Origin: a virus
DNA length: 64,000 nt
Strand: one strand, 5' to 3'
Virus record (IMG/VR): IMGVR_UViG_3300023096_000001
Location: 32,244-96,243 of that record
Shown here one piece after another: positions 28,093-63,393 of the stretch. The position numbers and the translations under genes were made by a program. Each line of letters starts with the position of its first letter. Position 1 is the first letter of the stretch. The notes under the pieces were generated by a model. The model ran no database searches. It was not told the DNA's origin and saw nothing but the letters and a program-made list of their open reading frames with translations.

Positions 28093-28569
28093 ATGCAAAT
28101 AATCATTGACAATCTTTACATCGGCAATCAGTACGACTTTCTCCCGGAAGGATGGGCTGTTGTAAACTGTGGGAAGTCACCTTGGCATCAGCAAGCCGTA
28201 GGCTATACGAAAAGTCTTGATAGCGCTCATCGGAACTATTTAATCCATGAGACAGAAGACGCGCTCAGTTTAAACCTTGTAGATGCTCCTTTCGAGTTTA
28301 AGCCACAATACACCGATCCTATCTTCAAGAAAGCATTTGAGTTTATCAATGCAAATAGAAAATCCCGACCGGTGTTGGTGCGCTGTAACCAAGGTTTATC
28401 AAGGTCTCCTTCGATTGTGCTGGCTTACCTTGGAAAGATGCTTCTGACAGCAGGTGATTATTATGAAGAGGCGCGCGAAGAGTTTAAAGACCTTTACCCA
28501 GACTATGCGCCAGGTAAAGGTGTAGAGGCATATTTGAAGAACGGTTGGGATAGGATTATTAAGTTGTAA
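28093..28569 (+). CDS. dual-specificity/tyrosine phosphatase-like protein
   Basis: 158 residues. The signature loop VRCNQGLSRSPS (C98, R104; C-x5-R followed by Ser) is that of cysteine-dependent protein phosphatases of the DSP type, and the protein length equals a minimal DSP domain. An Asp upstream (NLVDAPFEF) is a candidate general acid. A GAACCCCC variant of the leader motif lies next to the ATG. It stands between the giant internal protein and the scaffold/capsid genes, so it is probably expressed late; it could act on virion proteins, RNA 5' ends or host proteins. Its 3' end overlaps the convergent S4-domain gene by 11 bases. Confidence 0.8.
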   Translation: MQIIIDNLYIGNQYDFLPEGWAVVNCGKSPWHQQAVGYTKSLDSAHRNYLIHETEDALSLNLVDAPFEFKPQYTDPIFKKAFEFINANRKSRPVLVRCNQGLSRSPSIVLAYLGKMLLTAGDYYEEAREEFKDLYPDYAPGKGVEAYLKNGWDRIIKL

Positions 28570-28741
28570 TAAATTCATGATTTATTTTGCCTATTCTTAC
28601 TATTTTAGGAGCTACAGCTACTTCTATATTTGAATCTACTTTAACTCCGTCGAATTTGACAGCTCCCATAGCAATTAGTCTTCTAGCTTCTCCCTTAAAC
28701 TGAACTGCTTTACTTCCTACAATAATGTCAACTGCTTCCAT
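28559..28741 (-). CDS. stand-alone S4-like RNA-binding domain protein (60 aa)
   Basis: 60 residues. The stretch FKGEARRLIAMGAVKFDG followed by VKVD and, after 15 residues, IVRIGK matches the S4 fold as seen at the C-terminus of tyrosyl-tRNA synthetases: 'SK.EARRLI.qGAVk.dG.kv.D ... i..GK..f'. The whole protein is just this domain. S4 domains bind structured RNA. The gene runs against the late genes and follows the DnaA-like gene by 24 bases, so the two probably form one leftward transcript. It could control phage or host translation or bind a structured phage RNA; the target is unknown. Confidence 0.7.
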   Translation of the reverse strand: MEAVDIIVGSKAVQFKGEARRLIAMGAVKFDGVKVDSNIEVAVAPKIVRIGKINHEFITT

Positions 28742-28765
28742 ATTATTTATTTATAAAAAGTTAAA

Positions 28766-29287
28766 TTATACAAATTCCAAACGTTCATCCAGCAATCCCT
28801 CTTCAGAGGCAATCCTCTGAGCGATCTTCCCAATTGAGAATAAATGTTTCTGGTTTTCTAAGTCTTCAGCATTCTTAGGCATGAGAGCGCCCATATAAGC
28901 CGGCTTGTGATTAATGGCTGCTACATGGCTATACCAATGATAGTTTGCTTTCATGGTACCATTCGCCACGTGCATAATGTTCACCATAATACTTGTATGC
29001 CATTTCCTGGCATGGGACACTCTTTTGATGTGATCCGGTATGGCATTGTAGTCTCCGTACTGCCCCATTCTAACACGGTGGAAGTCTGTAAACTTAATGT
29101 CGAAGTATTCGATTACCGCCAGCTCAATGATTTGCGTAGCGCTCTTCATATCGCCGTTTTTAGATATTAAACTGTAAAATAATTCTTCGATGGTGTTTTC
29201 GATACCATGTATTCTTTCTTCGGCATGCGATAATCTTGTGATCAAATGGTTGACCAATTGAATCAATCCATCTTCGGTTTTCGACAT
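28766..29287 (-). CDS. DnaA-domain-IV-like DNA-binding protein
   Basis: 173 residues from ATG 29287. After an N-terminal coiled-coil-like helix (residues 5-40), the segment IIELAVIEYFDIKFTDFHRVR resembles the start of DnaA domain IV ('I...Va.yy.ik..dl....R'), and SHARKWHTSIMVNIMHVANG then WYSHVAAINHK resembles its 'aRq.am.la.el' helix and the 'RDHtTVlHA' recognition motif. The AAA+ ATPase part of DnaA is absent. I infer a sequence-specific DNA-binding protein, perhaps acting on an origin or promoters. The family call is tentative. Confidence 0.55.
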   Translation of the reverse strand: MSKTEDGLIQLVNHLITRLSHAEERIHGIENTIEELFYSLISKNGDMKSATQIIELAVIEYFDIKFTDFHRVRMGQYGDYNAIPDHIKRVSHARKWHTSIMVNIMHVANGTMKANYHWYSHVAAINHKPAYMGALMPKNAEDLENQKHLFSIGKIAQRIASEEGLLDERLEFV

Positions 29288-29347
29288 AAACAATATATTT
29301 TATTTTCTGCCCGAAATATACTAAAAATATCCGTCGCAAAAAAGGAC

Positions 29348-29386
29348 TTGTAAGTCGAAATCTATATTGCGCTCTATCTAAATTTG
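29348..29386 (+). promoter_or_regulatory. candidate late promoter for scaffold/capsid genes
   Basis: TTGTAAGTCGAA (29348-29359) lies 31 bases (start to start) before TAAATTTG (29379-29386), an exact TAnnTTTG -7 box. The same 12-mer and spacing occur at 37598. Start of transcription would be near the GAACCAC motif, 29 bases before ATG 29415. Confidence 0.5.
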
Positions 29387-29392
29387 AATCCA

Positions 29393-29399
29393 GAACCAC
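29393..29399 (+). promoter_or_regulatory. GAACCAC leader motif
   Basis: CAGAACCACAAAAC, 15 bases before ATG 29415 and 6 bases after the -7 box, so it would lie at or next to the 5' end of the mRNA. Confidence 0.4.
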
Positions 29400-29414
29400 A
29401 AAACAAAATATACA

Positions 29415-30350
29415 ATGGCGGATTCACTTGCATTAGATGCTTTCGAAAAGTTTAACCAGGAGATGGGATTCTCTGACAAGGATGATTCCTCGTTTGCGGG
29501 GTCTCCTATTGGATTTGACGATCAAATTGTAAAAGAACTCGAAAACCGCGTAAAAAGTACAATCCCTAAAGGAGTAGATACGCAGCGCAATGATGCGGAC
29601 GCAGCCGATCCTGAAAACTTTATTCCTGAGTATTGGAAAGGTCATGAGGATTTAATTACAAAAGGATTTGAGATCGAAGAGGATAAGACCAATTATTCTC
29701 AGCTGGCGATGCAGAAGTTTGGATCAGAGTATTCTCATTTAAACTCTCCAGAGCAGGTTTACGACGAATCTTTCCGTCAGACAGAAGGCGGCAATTATTT
29801 GAGTCAAAATCCTCGCTTCAGAGAGGCGCAAAAAGTATTGCAAGGCGGTGTTACCGATGCGGATTTAGTGCGCCAAGTGCTTCGCGAAAAGATGGATGCG
29901 GACCCGATCACGTTCTCTCGCAGAATGTTTGACGAACGTATTTCGGAGCTATTTGATGAAGATGGCTTAAATGAAGATGGCAAACGCATGGCAAATGCTT
30001 TCAAAGGGCATTATAAAAATGAATATGACAGAATCCTTCAGGAAGCCACCACTCATGCGGATAGTGCGCTTCAAAAGGAAAAAGAATACAGAAATGTCTT
30101 AACCGAGTCTTTGGAAAAGTTTAGCCCGTTCGGGGTGGAGCTTCCTGAGGATGCTAAGAACTACCTTAAGCAACTCGTTAAAAAAAATATGGTTAATCCT
30201 TCTCAGCCGAAGACTCCAGAGGAACGCGCTGAACGTGCTATTAACGAAGCGATTTTCTCGGATAAAAAGCTCTTGGCAACTTTGCTTCGGGCAGTAGATA
30301 AAAGAGGTGTTGAAGTTGGTAAAACCCAAAAATTTAAAAGTAAATACTAA
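29415..30350 (+). CDS. probable capsid scaffolding protein
   Basis: 311 residues, acidic N-terminal two thirds, highly charged and helical (residues 120-200 and 205-250), with a basic C-terminus ending KTQKFKSKY. Acidic helical proteins with a basic C-terminal tail immediately before the capsid gene (6-base gap) are typical scaffolds, where the basic tail binds capsid subunits. It may instead be an internal head protein. A promoter and GAACCAC motif precede it. Confidence 0.6.
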   Translation: MADSLALDAFEKFNQEMGFSDKDDSSFAGSPIGFDDQIVKELENRVKSTIPKGVDTQRNDADAADPENFIPEYWKGHEDLITKGFEIEEDKTNYSQLAMQKFGSEYSHLNSPEQVYDESFRQTEGGNYLSQNPRFREAQKVLQGGVTDADLVRQVLREKMDADPITFSRRMFDERISELFDEDGLNEDGKRMANAFKGHYKNEYDRILQEATTHADSALQKEKEYRNVLTESLEKFSPFGVELPEDAKNYLKQLVKKNMVNPSQPKTPEERAERAINEAIFSDKKLLATLLRAVDKRGVEVGKTQKFKSKY

Positions 30351-30356
30351 AACGCA

Positions 30357-31934
30357 ATGGCAGACAAACTTAGAATAAGCGCTGGCTTCGGTAGCCGAAA
30401 AAGAGTAGCTGGAGATATCGCGCTTCGTGATGACTTGTTAGCTAAATACCCTGAGCAGTTTATCACTCAGATTATAAGTCGCATGAATCCGCGCTCACCT
30501 TGGTTGGTGTTTGGCAATCTTTTCGGGGAGGGCCAGGATATGTATACTAAGGATAAAGGTTTCGAAGTTGAAACTTCTACCATTGGAGCAGAATTTATCA
30601 GAATCGTTGAGGAAACGAAATATCGTCAGGTTTCACGTGTCGTGGATAACTCGCAAGTGCCAGATGTACTTACAGCGGGTGTGCCTTTTGACCTATCTCT
30701 TGACTTTGGCATCCTTGACGAAGACGAACAGGTTAAGCTTCGTGATGCCCGTACCATGCTTCGTGTTGTGTCACGCCGTATCAATAATCATGGGCACCTT
30801 GATGTTACGTTTGTATTGTCAGGTCAGGTAGGTGACACTGCGCCAGGAAGTCTTCTTCGTGTAGGCAGTCCTGTTCATTGGGGCTTTGGTAACACAAAAG
30901 GAGAAGGGTCTTCTCTTCCAAACAGCTTGCCGCTTGGTGCTTACAAAAAGAATACATTTGTAAACCCAACCATGATTACGCGTTATGGATGGCAAGAGAC
31001 AGGTTCTTATATCTCTGATGAAGTGGCAATGTTCGGTATCGAAAATGCCATGGACGGGTCTAAATCAATGATCAGAACTTCTCTTCCAAAAGAGGCGCTT
31101 GAATCATTCTTGACAAGTTTGGATGGTCAAATCATGGACTCTGTTTCCAACTTCGATCCAGAGACACTTGAAATTAACGGGTACAAAGGAAACTCTCCTT
31201 ATCCAGACCGTCCTTCATACGCTGGTGTTCGTCAACAACTTGACCAAGCACACTTTCAGTATTTCCATCCTGTTAAAGCATCACTACCTTCTAATCTAAA
31301 TCGGATTGAAAGTATTATGCAACAAATCCGTCAGGTATTCCCTAATTCGGATGTGTTGGTTGTAGGAGAAGGTGCCGGTATTAAGTGGGTGAAACAAGCA
31401 ATTCGTTTTGCTCAGTCTACTTCAGGTGTAACCTTGTTCAGAAATGTGCCGGCTGATGGTAAAGTCGATATTGGCTTTGCGATTAACCGCTACATCACAG
31501 ATGAAGGTAATCTGTATATGTATGATATGACAGATGCTTACCAGCCGAGCGGAGATTACGACACCTTCACATATGCGGGAATTACAAGCAGCGATCGTAG
31601 CCGTGAGCTATATTTCATCCCTGTGAAAACCTCAGCCGATGGTAGACGATTGAAGTCATTTAAATTGTACACCAAGTCGGGCGTTGGACCAAATGGCAAC
31701 CGAGTAAACCGTGGCTTTGTTTATAACAAGATTCGTGGAAATACCGGCGAACTTGATGGTTTAAATGGCGATCAATTAATGAACTTGAATGATGGGTCGT
31801 TGGAAGACATGGTTAGAAATCCATCTCGCTATGAGACAGGATCTACCTATGATGGAAATCAACACATGCTTCTTGCAGAGAATGTGCCTTACATCGATGT
31901 GTATGGTATCATCAAATTGACTTTGGAAAGATAA
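30357..31934 (+). CDS. probable major capsid protein
   Basis: 525 residues, beta-rich, no low-complexity or membrane segments. Its place directly behind the scaffold, its length (about 500 in Bacteroidota podoviruses) and an N-terminal amphipathic region (DDLLAKYPEQFITQIISRM) followed by long alternating strands and helices fit an HK97-fold capsid protein. The segment NRIESIMQQIRQVFPNSDVLVVGEGAG resembles an A-domain helix-strand pair. No diagnostic motif exists for this fold in sequence, so the call rests mainly on context. Confidence 0.65.
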   Translation: MADKLRISAGFGSRKRVAGDIALRDDLLAKYPEQFITQIISRMNPRSPWLVFGNLFGEGQDMYTKDKGFEVETSTIGAEFIRIVEETKYRQVSRVVDNSQVPDVLTAGVPFDLSLDFGILDEDEQVKLRDARTMLRVVSRRINNHGHLDVTFVLSGQVGDTAPGSLLRVGSPVHWGFGNTKGEGSSLPNSLPLGAYKKNTFVNPTMITRYGWQETGSYISDEVAMFGIENAMDGSKSMIRTSLPKEALESFLTSLDGQIMDSVSNFDPETLEINGYKGNSPYPDRPSYAGVRQQLDQAHFQYFHPVKASLPSNLNRIESIMQQIRQVFPNSDVLVVGEGAGIKWVKQAIRFAQSTSGVTLFRNVPADGKVDIGFAINRYITDEGNLYMYDMTDAYQPSGDYDTFTYAGITSSDRSRELYFIPVKTSADGRRLKSFKLYTKSGVGPNGNRVNRGFVYNKIRGNTGELDGLNGDQLMNLNDGSLEDMVRNPSRYETGSTYDGNQHMLLAENVPYIDVYGIIKLTLER

Positions 31935-61187: not shown

Positions 61188-61661
61188 TTAATATAATTTT
61201 GGCTTTAAATCTGCTTTTAGATAAAGTGGGTGCCCTGGATATCCATTCTTGGTTTTATGAATTGCATGGAATTTCACATGGTTTAAATCATACGTATGGA
61301 CCGGCCAGTTTTTTAATTTCTTATGAGGAACACCGTATGCCAATACATGTAATTGACACTTCTCCGCCATCCATAAAATGTTTAAAATATTTGACCTGGG
61401 AAATAAATCAGGCTCAGAAACATTATTCAATTCAGCAGGCTTTGTGGCTATGTACGGAGAAATATTGCCGACATATATTCCTCCGTAGCCCCACGATTTT
61501 GCAAAGTTTATACATCGCGTGATTGTAGGATCATTTTCGTCTTCATCTGCCTTGCTGGGATTGTGCATAATGAAAAGAACTTTTGGTTTCTCATCATCCC
61601 AGATTCGCCACAACTGATAACGATACTGGCGACTTTCTGATAGAATTGCTCCTTTTTTCAT
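61188..61661 (-). CDS. DUF1643 family protein
   Basis: 157 residues. YRYQLWRIWDDEKPKVLFIMHNPSKADEDENDPTITRCINFA (in pieces) and SWGYGGIYVGNISPYIATKPAELN match DUF1643: 'R..L.R.W....p..lfimlNPS.ADe..dDpTi.rc..fa...Gyggl.v.Nl..y.at.p..l'. The family occurs in bacteria and phages with unknown activity. Start ATG 61661, two bases behind the stop of the next gene upstream. Confidence 0.75.
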   Translation of the reverse strand: MKKGAILSESRQYRYQLWRIWDDEKPKVLFIMHNPSKADEDENDPTITRCINFAKSWGYGGIYVGNISPYIATKPAELNNVSEPDLFPRSNILNILWMAEKCQLHVLAYGVPHKKLKNWPVHTYDLNHVKFHAIHKTKNGYPGHPLYLKADLKPKLY

Positions 61662-61663
61662 AA

Positions 61664-61876
61664 TTATTTTAAATTTTTCTTTATTCTAGTTTGTCTCTCT
61701 CCAGCAATTGCCATAAAATCAAAGCACTGTATTTTACAAGCGGGAGGATGTAATATCGCTCTTCTATCCGACTCAGATAAGCCTGAATTTCTGAACTCTA
61801 GGTAAACTCTATTCCACTCTTGGATATCAAATCTAACTTCCCCGGTAAGATTTTGACAATAGAAGTGAGCTTTCAT
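61664..61876 (-). CDS. unknown small protein (70 aa)
   Basis: 70 residues: FYCQNLTGEVRFDIQEWNRVYLEFRN, then LHPPACKIQCFDFMAIAGERQTRIKKN. Two Cys in ACKIQC plus an early Cys could bind metal weakly. Overlaps the stop of the upstream gene (ATGA). No family known. Confidence 0.6.
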   Translation of the reverse strand: MKAHFYCQNLTGEVRFDIQEWNRVYLEFRNSGLSESDRRAILHPPACKIQCFDFMAIAGERQTRIKKNLK

Positions 61877-62433
61877 TGGAATTTATTATAATATTTGAAA
61901 ACTTTTTTCAACTGAGATGCGTCTTTTATATGAAACTCCCAATCGTCTTTTGCAACTTCCTCTTCGATAACATCAATATAAAATGTCTTTGGTGTAAACG
62001 GGAAACTCTTTACGCATTGCCTGCTAAGTATTATCTCTCCGCCAAGTATAGCAGAACCTGAATATGTCATTCCGTGCTGATTCTTCCAGACAATAGCGTC
62101 TAAGTAATAAGCTTCATGCGTGGTACTTTTAAACAGAGCGGAGCATCTACAATTTTGATACATTCCTTCCTGCTCAGACACTAACGTCCATTCTTGCTCT
62201 ATCCCTGTAACTGGATAAATAGGTTTTTGTAGGAGTAAGCTTTTCAGTGTCTTCGATATCGCTTGTGCCGTATAAGGCGCCGAACCTCCACTTTGACCCG
62301 AATTGCCAAATTTTTCACAAAGAGACAATATTTCTTCTCTAAACTCTTCCACTAATGGTCGGTTGTCCGAATCCGTAAAGGAAGCACTGAGGACATCTAG
62401 CTCCATCGCAGCAAATCTATAAGTATTTGTCAT
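61873..62433 (-). CDS. unknown conserved-type phage protein (186 aa)
   Basis: 186 residues from ATG 62433 (MTNTYRFAAMELDVL); a GTG at 62460 would add 9. N-terminal helices are followed by an Ala/Ser/Gly linker and a beta domain with CRCSALFKSTTHEAYYLDAIVWKNQ and FPFTPKTFYIDVIEEE, which is a strongly conserved-looking block I recall from other phage hypothetical proteins. C-terminal helix with SQLKKVFKYYNKF. No function known; position in the replication block suggests DNA metabolism. Confidence 0.65.
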   Translation of the reverse strand: MTNTYRFAAMELDVLSASFTDSDNRPLVEEFREEILSLCEKFGNSGQSGGSAPYTAQAISKTLKSLLLQKPIYPVTGIEQEWTLVSEQEGMYQNCRCSALFKSTTHEAYYLDAIVWKNQHGMTYSGSAILGGEIILSRQCVKSFPFTPKTFYIDVIEEEVAKDDWEFHIKDASQLKKVFKYYNKFQ

Positions 62434-62488
62434 TCTTAATAAAGCAGTTAGCCTTAACACTGCCAGGTTTAAGTTTAATTATATCTTT

Positions 62489-62824
62489 CTAAATTTGATT
62501 GCGATGCCCTGCTCTAATCGCTATCCTAAGCTTCTCCAGCGCATTCTTCCTTTTCACAGCATTCCCACCGGCAAATAGCATAATAATAAACCCTCCATCA
62601 ATAAGCTCTTTATAAAGCGCCGTTTCAGGAGCCATGCGGATGATACTGTTGGAAGGATTCACCTGCAAATCTTTCAGCAGAAAGAGTATGTCATCAATGC
62701 GTACCTGGTCGTTGTACACCCATTCCATCTTAACCCGGCTGAAGATATTCACTTCGAGGTGTGTTTCGCTGGAAGGGGTTGATTCGATGTAGATTTCTGA
62801 TTTAATTTTGGCGGTGATTTTCAT
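62489..62824 (-). CDS. unknown protein (111 aa)
   Basis: 111 residues: a beta-rich first half (KITAKIKSEIYIE, THLEVNIFSRVKMEWVYND) and a helical second half with basic end (VKRKNALEKLRIAIRAGHRN). Overlaps the stop of the HNH gene by 4 bases. A small nucleic-acid-associated protein is possible; unproven. Confidence 0.6.
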   Translation of the reverse strand: MKITAKIKSEIYIESTPSSETHLEVNIFSRVKMEWVYNDQVRIDDILFLLKDLQVNPSNSIIRMAPETALYKELIDGGFIIMLFAGGNAVKRKNALEKLRIAIRAGHRNQI

Positions 62825-63393
62825 AAGTTATTCCAAGTTTTCCATTCTACTTTTTTATTCTTTTGAACCAGCCTCTTGATTACGTAAAAGCTCACGCCAT
62901 ACTGATCAGCAATATCTTGTTTCGTTGGAGTGCCTAACACTTTGCTCACTTTGCCAAATTGATAATTAGCTCTAATTTCTCGCACTTGATCATTCGTTAA
63001 TGTAGCGCAAGGGTTTTTATCTCCGTGAACAGATTTATTCCCTTCTCTAAAAGCATGTAAAGTATTTTGAGATTTACTTACCCATTCTAAATTATTTACA
63101 GAATTATCTGAACGATTAGAGTTTTTGTGGTTTACATCATCGAATCCAACCTCTGGAGTGCCCCAAAAAGTGAGTGCAATTATCCTGTGAACTTTTATAG
63201 TGCCAATCTTCCCATCAGAATCTCTTTTAAGCATTGTTCTTAAATACCCGCAAGCATCGGCATGTGGTTTCATAATGGCTTCTATACCTTTATTCTTCCA
63301 GTTAAAAGTTTTAATTCTTCCAAAGGTAGATGCTTCATACAAACTATATCCTGGTATAGTTTTCCAAATTTCTTCTGTGTCACTATAATTCAT
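62821..63393 (-). CDS. HNH homing endonuclease with NUMOD4
   Basis: 190 residues. EEIWKTIPGYSLYEASTFGRIKTF is a NUMOD4 domain; VHRIIALTFWGTPE and VNHKNSNRSDNSVNNLEWVS form the HNH core (His in 'NHK' and the NNLEW block); a C-terminal helix-turn-helix (KQDIADQYGVSFYVIKRLVQ) would contact DNA. It is a free-standing, likely mobile endonuclease gene lying directly downstream of the helicase gene, with a 12-base gap. Such genes spread between phages by cutting homing-less alleles. Confidence 0.8.
   Translation of the reverse strand: MNYSDTEEIWKTIPGYSLYEASTFGRIKTFNWKNKGIEAIMKPHADACGYLRTMLKRDSDGKIGTIKVHRIIALTFWGTPEVGFDDVNHKNSNRSDNSVNNLEWVSKSQNTLHAFREGNKSVHGDKNPCATLTNDQVREIRANYQFGKVSKVLGTPTKQDIADQYGVSFYVIKRLVQKNKKVEWKTWNNL

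Follow-up and report, generated by a model that had tools for sequence, protein, structure and literature searches.

A leftward unit in the late gene block of a distant crAss-like phage: a conserved DnaA-domain-IV-like gene and a variable cargo position that here holds a TyrRS-derived S4 domain

Phages are described as escaping the retron-Eco7 and Septu defence systems by means of tRNA-Tyr genes (PMC11555353, PMC13096335; in the parts of these papers available to us), and the C-terminal domain of tyrosyl-tRNA synthetase (TyrRS) binds the anticodon and variable arms of tRNA (PMC4275181, likewise in the part available). In the open-access literature we found no report of a phage S4-domain protein paired with a DnaA-like protein. 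Such a pair stands in the late genes of the virus analysed here, in a stretch of 64,000 nucleotides (hereafter the window) that covers positions 32244-96243 of the 96,243-bp IMG/VR virus record IMGVR_UViG_3300023096_000001. The features of the locus, in window coordinates, are:

28093..28569, + strand: dual-specificity-phosphatase-like gene (DSPc match, 1.2e-8), convergent with the leftward unit
28559..28741, - strand: S4 ORF, 60 aa, with its own ATG and stop; variable cargo, by homology a detached TyrRS C-terminal S4 domain
28766..29287, - strand: DNAL, 173 aa, ORF from the ATG at 29287; conserved anchor gene, DnaA-domain-IV-like (HTH), no ATPase
29288..29414, no strand: divergent spacer of 127 bp between DNAL and the scaffold-like gene; candidate control region
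29367..29386, + strand: 20-bp block TTGCGCTCTATCTAAATTTG, candidate promoter/operator within the spacer
29415..30350, + strand: scaffold-like gene, first rightward gene past the spacer; putative role, from its place before the capsid gene
30357..31934, + strand: major capsid protein, profile match to the major head protein of Azobacteroides phage ProJPt-Bp1
35600..37588, + strand: terminase large subunit, used for finding relatives

The first-pass annotation had described two - strand genes interrupting more than 50 kb of + strand late genes, as a leftward unit divergent from the scaffold and capsid genes, and this layout holds. Large rightward ORFs span 7567-58910 (about 51 kb) and DNAL and S4 are the sole leftward genes inside, where the other leftward ORFs of at least 90 aa overlap larger rightward ORFs and the choice of genes is ours. 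The S4 ORF starts 24 nt past the stop of DNAL. Most of the 21 phage records matched by the terminase are crAss-like; identities are 21-23%, apart from a short piece at 53%, the best match is in Azobacteroides phage ProJPt-Bp1 (order Crassvirales), and the portal protein shares 22% identity with that of the crAss-like cr50_1; because of these terminase and portal matches the virus is, by protein homology, a distant crAss-like phage. A four-member capsid profile (E 1.5e-4) also matches the place annotated as major head protein in ProJPt-Bp1. The left arm of the phage encodes a protein (L007:3840-5033, - strand) that matches the DNA polymerase III beta clamp (2.3e-12), and the 96,243-bp record lacks tRNA genes. 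Elsewhere in the window, a protein encoded at 61873-62460 (- strand) matches Tad3, the type I Thoeris inhibitor, over the cut-off (E 1.8e-22), and close to it, also on the - strand, lie genes for a DUF1643 protein (61188-61661; 9.8e-36) and for a homing-type endonuclease, HNH/NUMOD4 (62821-63393).

Direct searches with the DNAL and S4 proteins in viral contigs and phage genomes found no relative, and one phage (two records) at E 0.5 was taken as chance. Relatives were reached through capsid and terminase searches and then DNAL profile searches, which yielded three further genomes. L002 is a virome genome of 99,882 bp whose capsid and terminase are 64% and 77% identical to those of the window and whose late genes are syntenic; the second (locus L016, genome G002; terminase 53%) lies within a Dyadobacter sp. 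CY312 contig of 936,876 bp. The third, G522 (locus L023), was found by the DNAL profile among the 222 genomes of the family of Dyadobacter, and its DNAL member (E 8.8e-5 per genome, with 222 searched) was accepted partly on synteny: the G522 contig of 2,019,647 bp also carries matches to the terminase, the capsid and several neighbouring genes of the window phage, and its scaffold-like gene gives a weak match (E 1.7e-8 over 74 aa). We infer that the Dyadobacter and G522 phage genomes are apparent prophages because the phage genes sit inside such long contigs; Pfam recognised no integrase among four candidate ORFs from that part of the Dyadobacter contig, and no open-access literature treating prophage, crAss-like and Dyadobacter together was found. 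Searched with the DNAL alignment, viral contigs again gave L002 alone and genome contigs no match, while the DNAL profile matched G002 and G522 among the 222 genomes of the family and, among 390 genomes of the order, G002 and three rows at E 0.003-0.006 that were taken as chance. The terminase profile at E<=1e-20 matched G002 alone among 395 genomes of the class. In the widest terminase scan, at least 191 places were confirmed and 80 kept, and within its 78 new loci (2,801 ORFs) the DNAL profile matched L030 alone, which was left out as a fifth genome because it is the same DNA as G522 over 14,011 bp. In ten distant crAss-like loci inspected by eye, with scaffold and capsid assigned from ORF size and order, no leftward ORF of at least 70 aa lies between the scaffold-like and capsid-like ORFs, and the only rows from tblastn of the G522 member against phage genomes came from Vibrio phages (six records, E 4).

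DNAL is present in all four genomes, on the strand opposite the late genes and adjoining the scaffold-like gene, with identities to the window protein of 56% over 154 aa (L002), 35% over 149 aa (Dyadobacter) and 22% (G522). It is unnamed in Pfam, PHROG and NCBIfam, where the best row for any member is unrelated (E 0.046). The annotation had read it as resembling DnaA domain IV but lacking the ATPase; profile comparison and a predicted fold speak for the resemblance, and the Pfam family itself does not match. PF08299 (Bac_DnaA_C) had no match at E<=10 in either virus record, the 96-kb one or L002, with 12 of 14 control genomes positive, and was absent from the hmmscan rows of all four DNAL members. 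Aligned by hhalign with DnaA domain IV, the four-member DNAL profile scored 24.8 (P 0.0015; none of 200 column shuffles as high), and the best of 26 other phage families, some of them shadow ORFs, 20 three-membered and with one protein of more than 1,500 aa skipped, scored 16.7. With three members the score was 16.0, second of 27 rows, and with two members 19.5, which 2 of 100 shuffles reached; the signal thus depends largely on the fourth and most divergent member, that of G522. The predicted fold of this member (pLDDT 67, pTM 0.64) was compared with 235 aligned chains and the first three rows were all DnaA, at Z values that the tool's own note rates as middling for a helical model: the DNA-binding domain of M. 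tuberculosis DnaA (Z 7.7, rmsd 3.1, 91 of 95 residues), 8btg (Z 7.2) and Aquifex (Z 6.7), followed by an unrelated row at 5.7. With the same model, Foldseek found nothing in the PDB at E<=0.001 and listed no DnaA there, and in BFVD seven of the 50 rows shown, six of them in the top 14, are named 'DnaA C-terminal' at non-significant E values of 0.97-5.6. The two-sequence model of the window DNAL was poor (pLDDT 50), with no DnaA among its structural matches, and at the position aligned with the DHTTV motif the G522 member has FQTTF and the window member HKPAY. Because the Pfam profile does not match, we do not call DNAL a proven member of the DnaA domain IV family; the predicted fold of the G522 member and, weakly, the sequence support a DnaA-domain-IV-like protein that probably binds DNA, and a role of DNAL alone as regulator is plausible.

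The spacer between DNAL and the scaffold-like gene is of similar length throughout, 127 bp in the window and in L002, 122 bp in Dyadobacter and 121 bp in G522, and presumably carries control elements. L002 carries its 20-bp block with a single mismatch to the window sequence, and the block ends in TAAATTTG, which resembles the Bacteroidota -7 promoter element; scans of the locus for sigma-70-type promoters and terminators gave nothing above chance. A DnaA-like helix-turn-helix could instead act on replication, binding an origin or host DnaA boxes as initiator or decoy. Such a role, which would fit the predicted fold of the G522 member and the beta-clamp-matching protein of the left arm, seems to us rather unlikely. 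With the consensus that we assume for the DnaA box, no exact copy exists in the 96-kb record and one-mismatch boxes number 28, within the 24-38 of ten shuffles; none of the four spacers contains a box within two mismatches, and the DNAL gene lies in the capsid block, away from the clamp gene. Any site bound by DNAL in the spacers would therefore differ from the classical box.

The genes behind DNAL differ in each genome, as two examples show:

L002:7940-8401, - strand: cargo of 153 aa in the position of S4, unrelated to S4 and without a family in the libraries
L023:10960-11190, + strand: Acb2/Tad1 hairpin protein of 76 aa in G522 (PF24729, 6.1e-8, over the cut-off)

The S4 gene, found in one of the four genomes, is absent from the whole L002 record and, at E<=0.01, from the Dyadobacter genome, and an examination of 20 kb of G522 revealed neither it nor the phosphatase-like gene. 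The phosphatase-like gene is present in the window, L002 and Dyadobacter, where the 3' ends of this gene and of the leftward unit share 11, 11 and 6 nt, respectively, and in Dyadobacter DNAL abuts it with no ORF between. A resemblance of the 153-aa protein to Tad2, seen by eye in a motif, was dropped for want of library support. Behind the G522 DNAL we count seven same-strand ORFs, our choice among overlapping frames, with one opposite-strand ORF among them; besides the hairpin protein they include a 116-aa ORF, HAD_SAK_2 (5.8e-28), an HTH of the Xre type and a protein whose treble-clef match (PF14311) is weak and falls below the cut-off. Since DNAL is fixed and the following genes differ in each case, the unit reads as a fixed first gene with changing cargo; its description as a counter-defence slot leans mainly on one genome, G522, among four in all.

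The current cargo of the window phage had been annotated as consisting only of an S4-type RNA-binding domain, an assignment that the 60-aa ORF upholds through homology to the S4 domain of TyrRS. Its matches in the family libraries point to TyrRS. Against Pfam it matched PF22421 (TyrRS C-terminal) at E 6e-4 and 20.1 of 27 bits, and PF01479 (S4) at E 0.04 and 14.1 of 22.8 bits; both lie below the curated cut-offs, and we accordingly describe the protein as derived from the TyrRS domain and do not file it under a Pfam entry. Its best match is the C-terminal part of a Bacteroidota TyrRS (46% identity, E 1.9e-8, residues 3-54 of 60). Among 395 genomes of the phylum, 180 matched at E<=0.01, and nearly all matches listed fall in frames of some 400-495 aa, with listed exceptions of 114, 209 and 981. 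In each of the 15 loci examined, the matched ORF is 403-416 aa long and continues for 6-14 residues past the match to its C-terminus, with local alignments that start at S4 residues 1-16, end at 51-54 and show 36-50% identity, and a multiple alignment with the synthetases covers the whole S4 protein including the KGEARRLI motif. All three of the matched synthetases scanned are tyrS equivalogs, and for one of the Bacteroidota enzymes the nearest synthetase of solved structure is 1h3e. On this homology we identify the S4 protein as the tRNA-binding C-terminal domain of a tyrosyl-tRNA synthetase, detached from the rest of the enzyme. With a third-position GC of 0.15 it falls below that of all 232 sixty-codon late-gene pieces (mean 0.44, minimum 0.20) and of all 22 leftward-gene pieces, and because of this outlying composition we suggest that it was recently acquired. 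A decaying remnant or a spurious, functionless ORF would also account for a frame of only 60 codons with low third-position GC and with no relative in viral contigs, phage genomes or L002. This explanation we hold to be somewhat less probable even than a replication role for DNAL, as the frame spans the synthetase S4 domain with KGEARRLI, has its own ATG and stop, and has a gene-like codon score, which equals or exceeds that of 12.5% of the 232 late-gene pieces and is reached by 1.7% of 59 open shadow-frame pieces.

Our preferred explanation, held with moderate confidence, is that the leftward unit consists of the conserved, probably DNA-binding DNAL and a swappable downstream position whose present cargo is S4. 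DNAL would bind the 121-127-bp divergent spacer and control its own leftward transcript, the scaffold-capsid transcript, or both, and the cargo could thereby be expressed apart from the late genes. By analogy with TyrRS, S4 may bind tRNA-Tyr or a similar structured RNA, and it would be an accessory protein, most likely of counter-defence; searches against anti-defence families in Pfam, PHROGs and NCBIfam gave no match. DNAL and S4 are then best explained as neighbours by history and not as a co-evolved pair. The first-pass annotation had put forward the opposite, a functional regulatory pair that would switch between early and late expression with one dedicated RNA-binding and one DNA-binding protein, and had proposed conservation of the pair in relatives as a check. 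The two genes do lie 24 nt apart on the same strand, divergent from the scaffold-like gene, and are probably co-transcribed; the check nevertheless gave DNAL in four of four genomes and S4 in only one of these, and the third-position composition of S4 is outlying, so that we regard such a switch as very improbable. Still less probable is that S4 aids splicing or folding of phage RNA like the C-terminal domain of CYT-18 with group I introns, since the binding of varied RNAs, group I introns included, by TyrRS C-terminal domains (PMC4275181, in the part available) is set against a 96,243-bp record without any Rfam match at the gathering threshold and hence without a recognised group I intron.

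Starting from the cargo reading, a more specific function for S4 may be considered, namely that the captured 60-aa tail of TyrRS, by covering the variable-arm region, shields host tRNA-Tyr from nucleases of the PtuAB type (Septu, retron-Eco7) that cut the variable loop, a protein shield in place of a replacement tRNA, carried in a slot under a DnaA-like regulator. We offer this as speculation with a low probability; it is drawn by analogy from the binding of anticodon and variable arms by the TyrRS C-terminal domain (PMC4275181, as cited above in part). TIGR02646, the model used for PtuB-like Septu genes, matched over the cut-off in 23 of the 222 genomes of the family of the prophage hosts, which may not be the host family of the window phage, and at any strength in 34 of the 222; at all four loci examined of the 44 places listed, the matching gene is PtuB next to PtuA. 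Against the shield count the absence of both prophage hosts, G002 and G522, from these 34 genomes and the existence of PtuAB systems that do not target tRNA, as PtuAB of retron-Eco4 likely does not and nicked DNA is cited as the target of Septu of ATCC25922 (both PMC11555353, in the available part). If the slot reading is true, the position behind DNAL is where further counter-defence genes of this crAss-like lineage could be sought; if that of S4 is true, a stand-alone synthetase domain is in phage use, with tRNA-Tyr binding and a blunted Septu or retron-Eco7 response as predictions.

Compared with known systems, DNAL resembles DnaA domain IV (PF08299) in the predicted fold of its G522 member and is itself small, without the AAA+ ATPase, like the small ATPase-free phage proteins named 'DnaA C-terminal' in BFVD (e.g. 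A0A6J5M868, 118 aa). It differs from DnaA domain IV in the longer stretch ahead of the HTH-like part and HKPAY in place of DHTTV in the window protein, in having no Pfam match, and in a spacer free of DnaA boxes. With the Acb2/Tad1 type of anti-defence cargo the unit has in common the hairpin protein downstream of DNAL in G522, whereas the slot here lies within the structural block with a DnaA-like gene at its head and S4 matches no anti-defence family. The S4 protein is homologous to the TyrRS C-terminal S4 domain (PF22421/TIGR00234) across the domain and shares KGEARRLI with it, but is a stand-alone protein of 60 aa without the catalytic domain. Finally, the counter-measure proposed for S4 would centre on tRNA-Tyr, as does that of the phages that withstand retron-Eco7 and Septu; those phages supply a tRNA gene, whereas the phage described here, whose record holds no tRNA gene, would supply a tRNA-binding protein.
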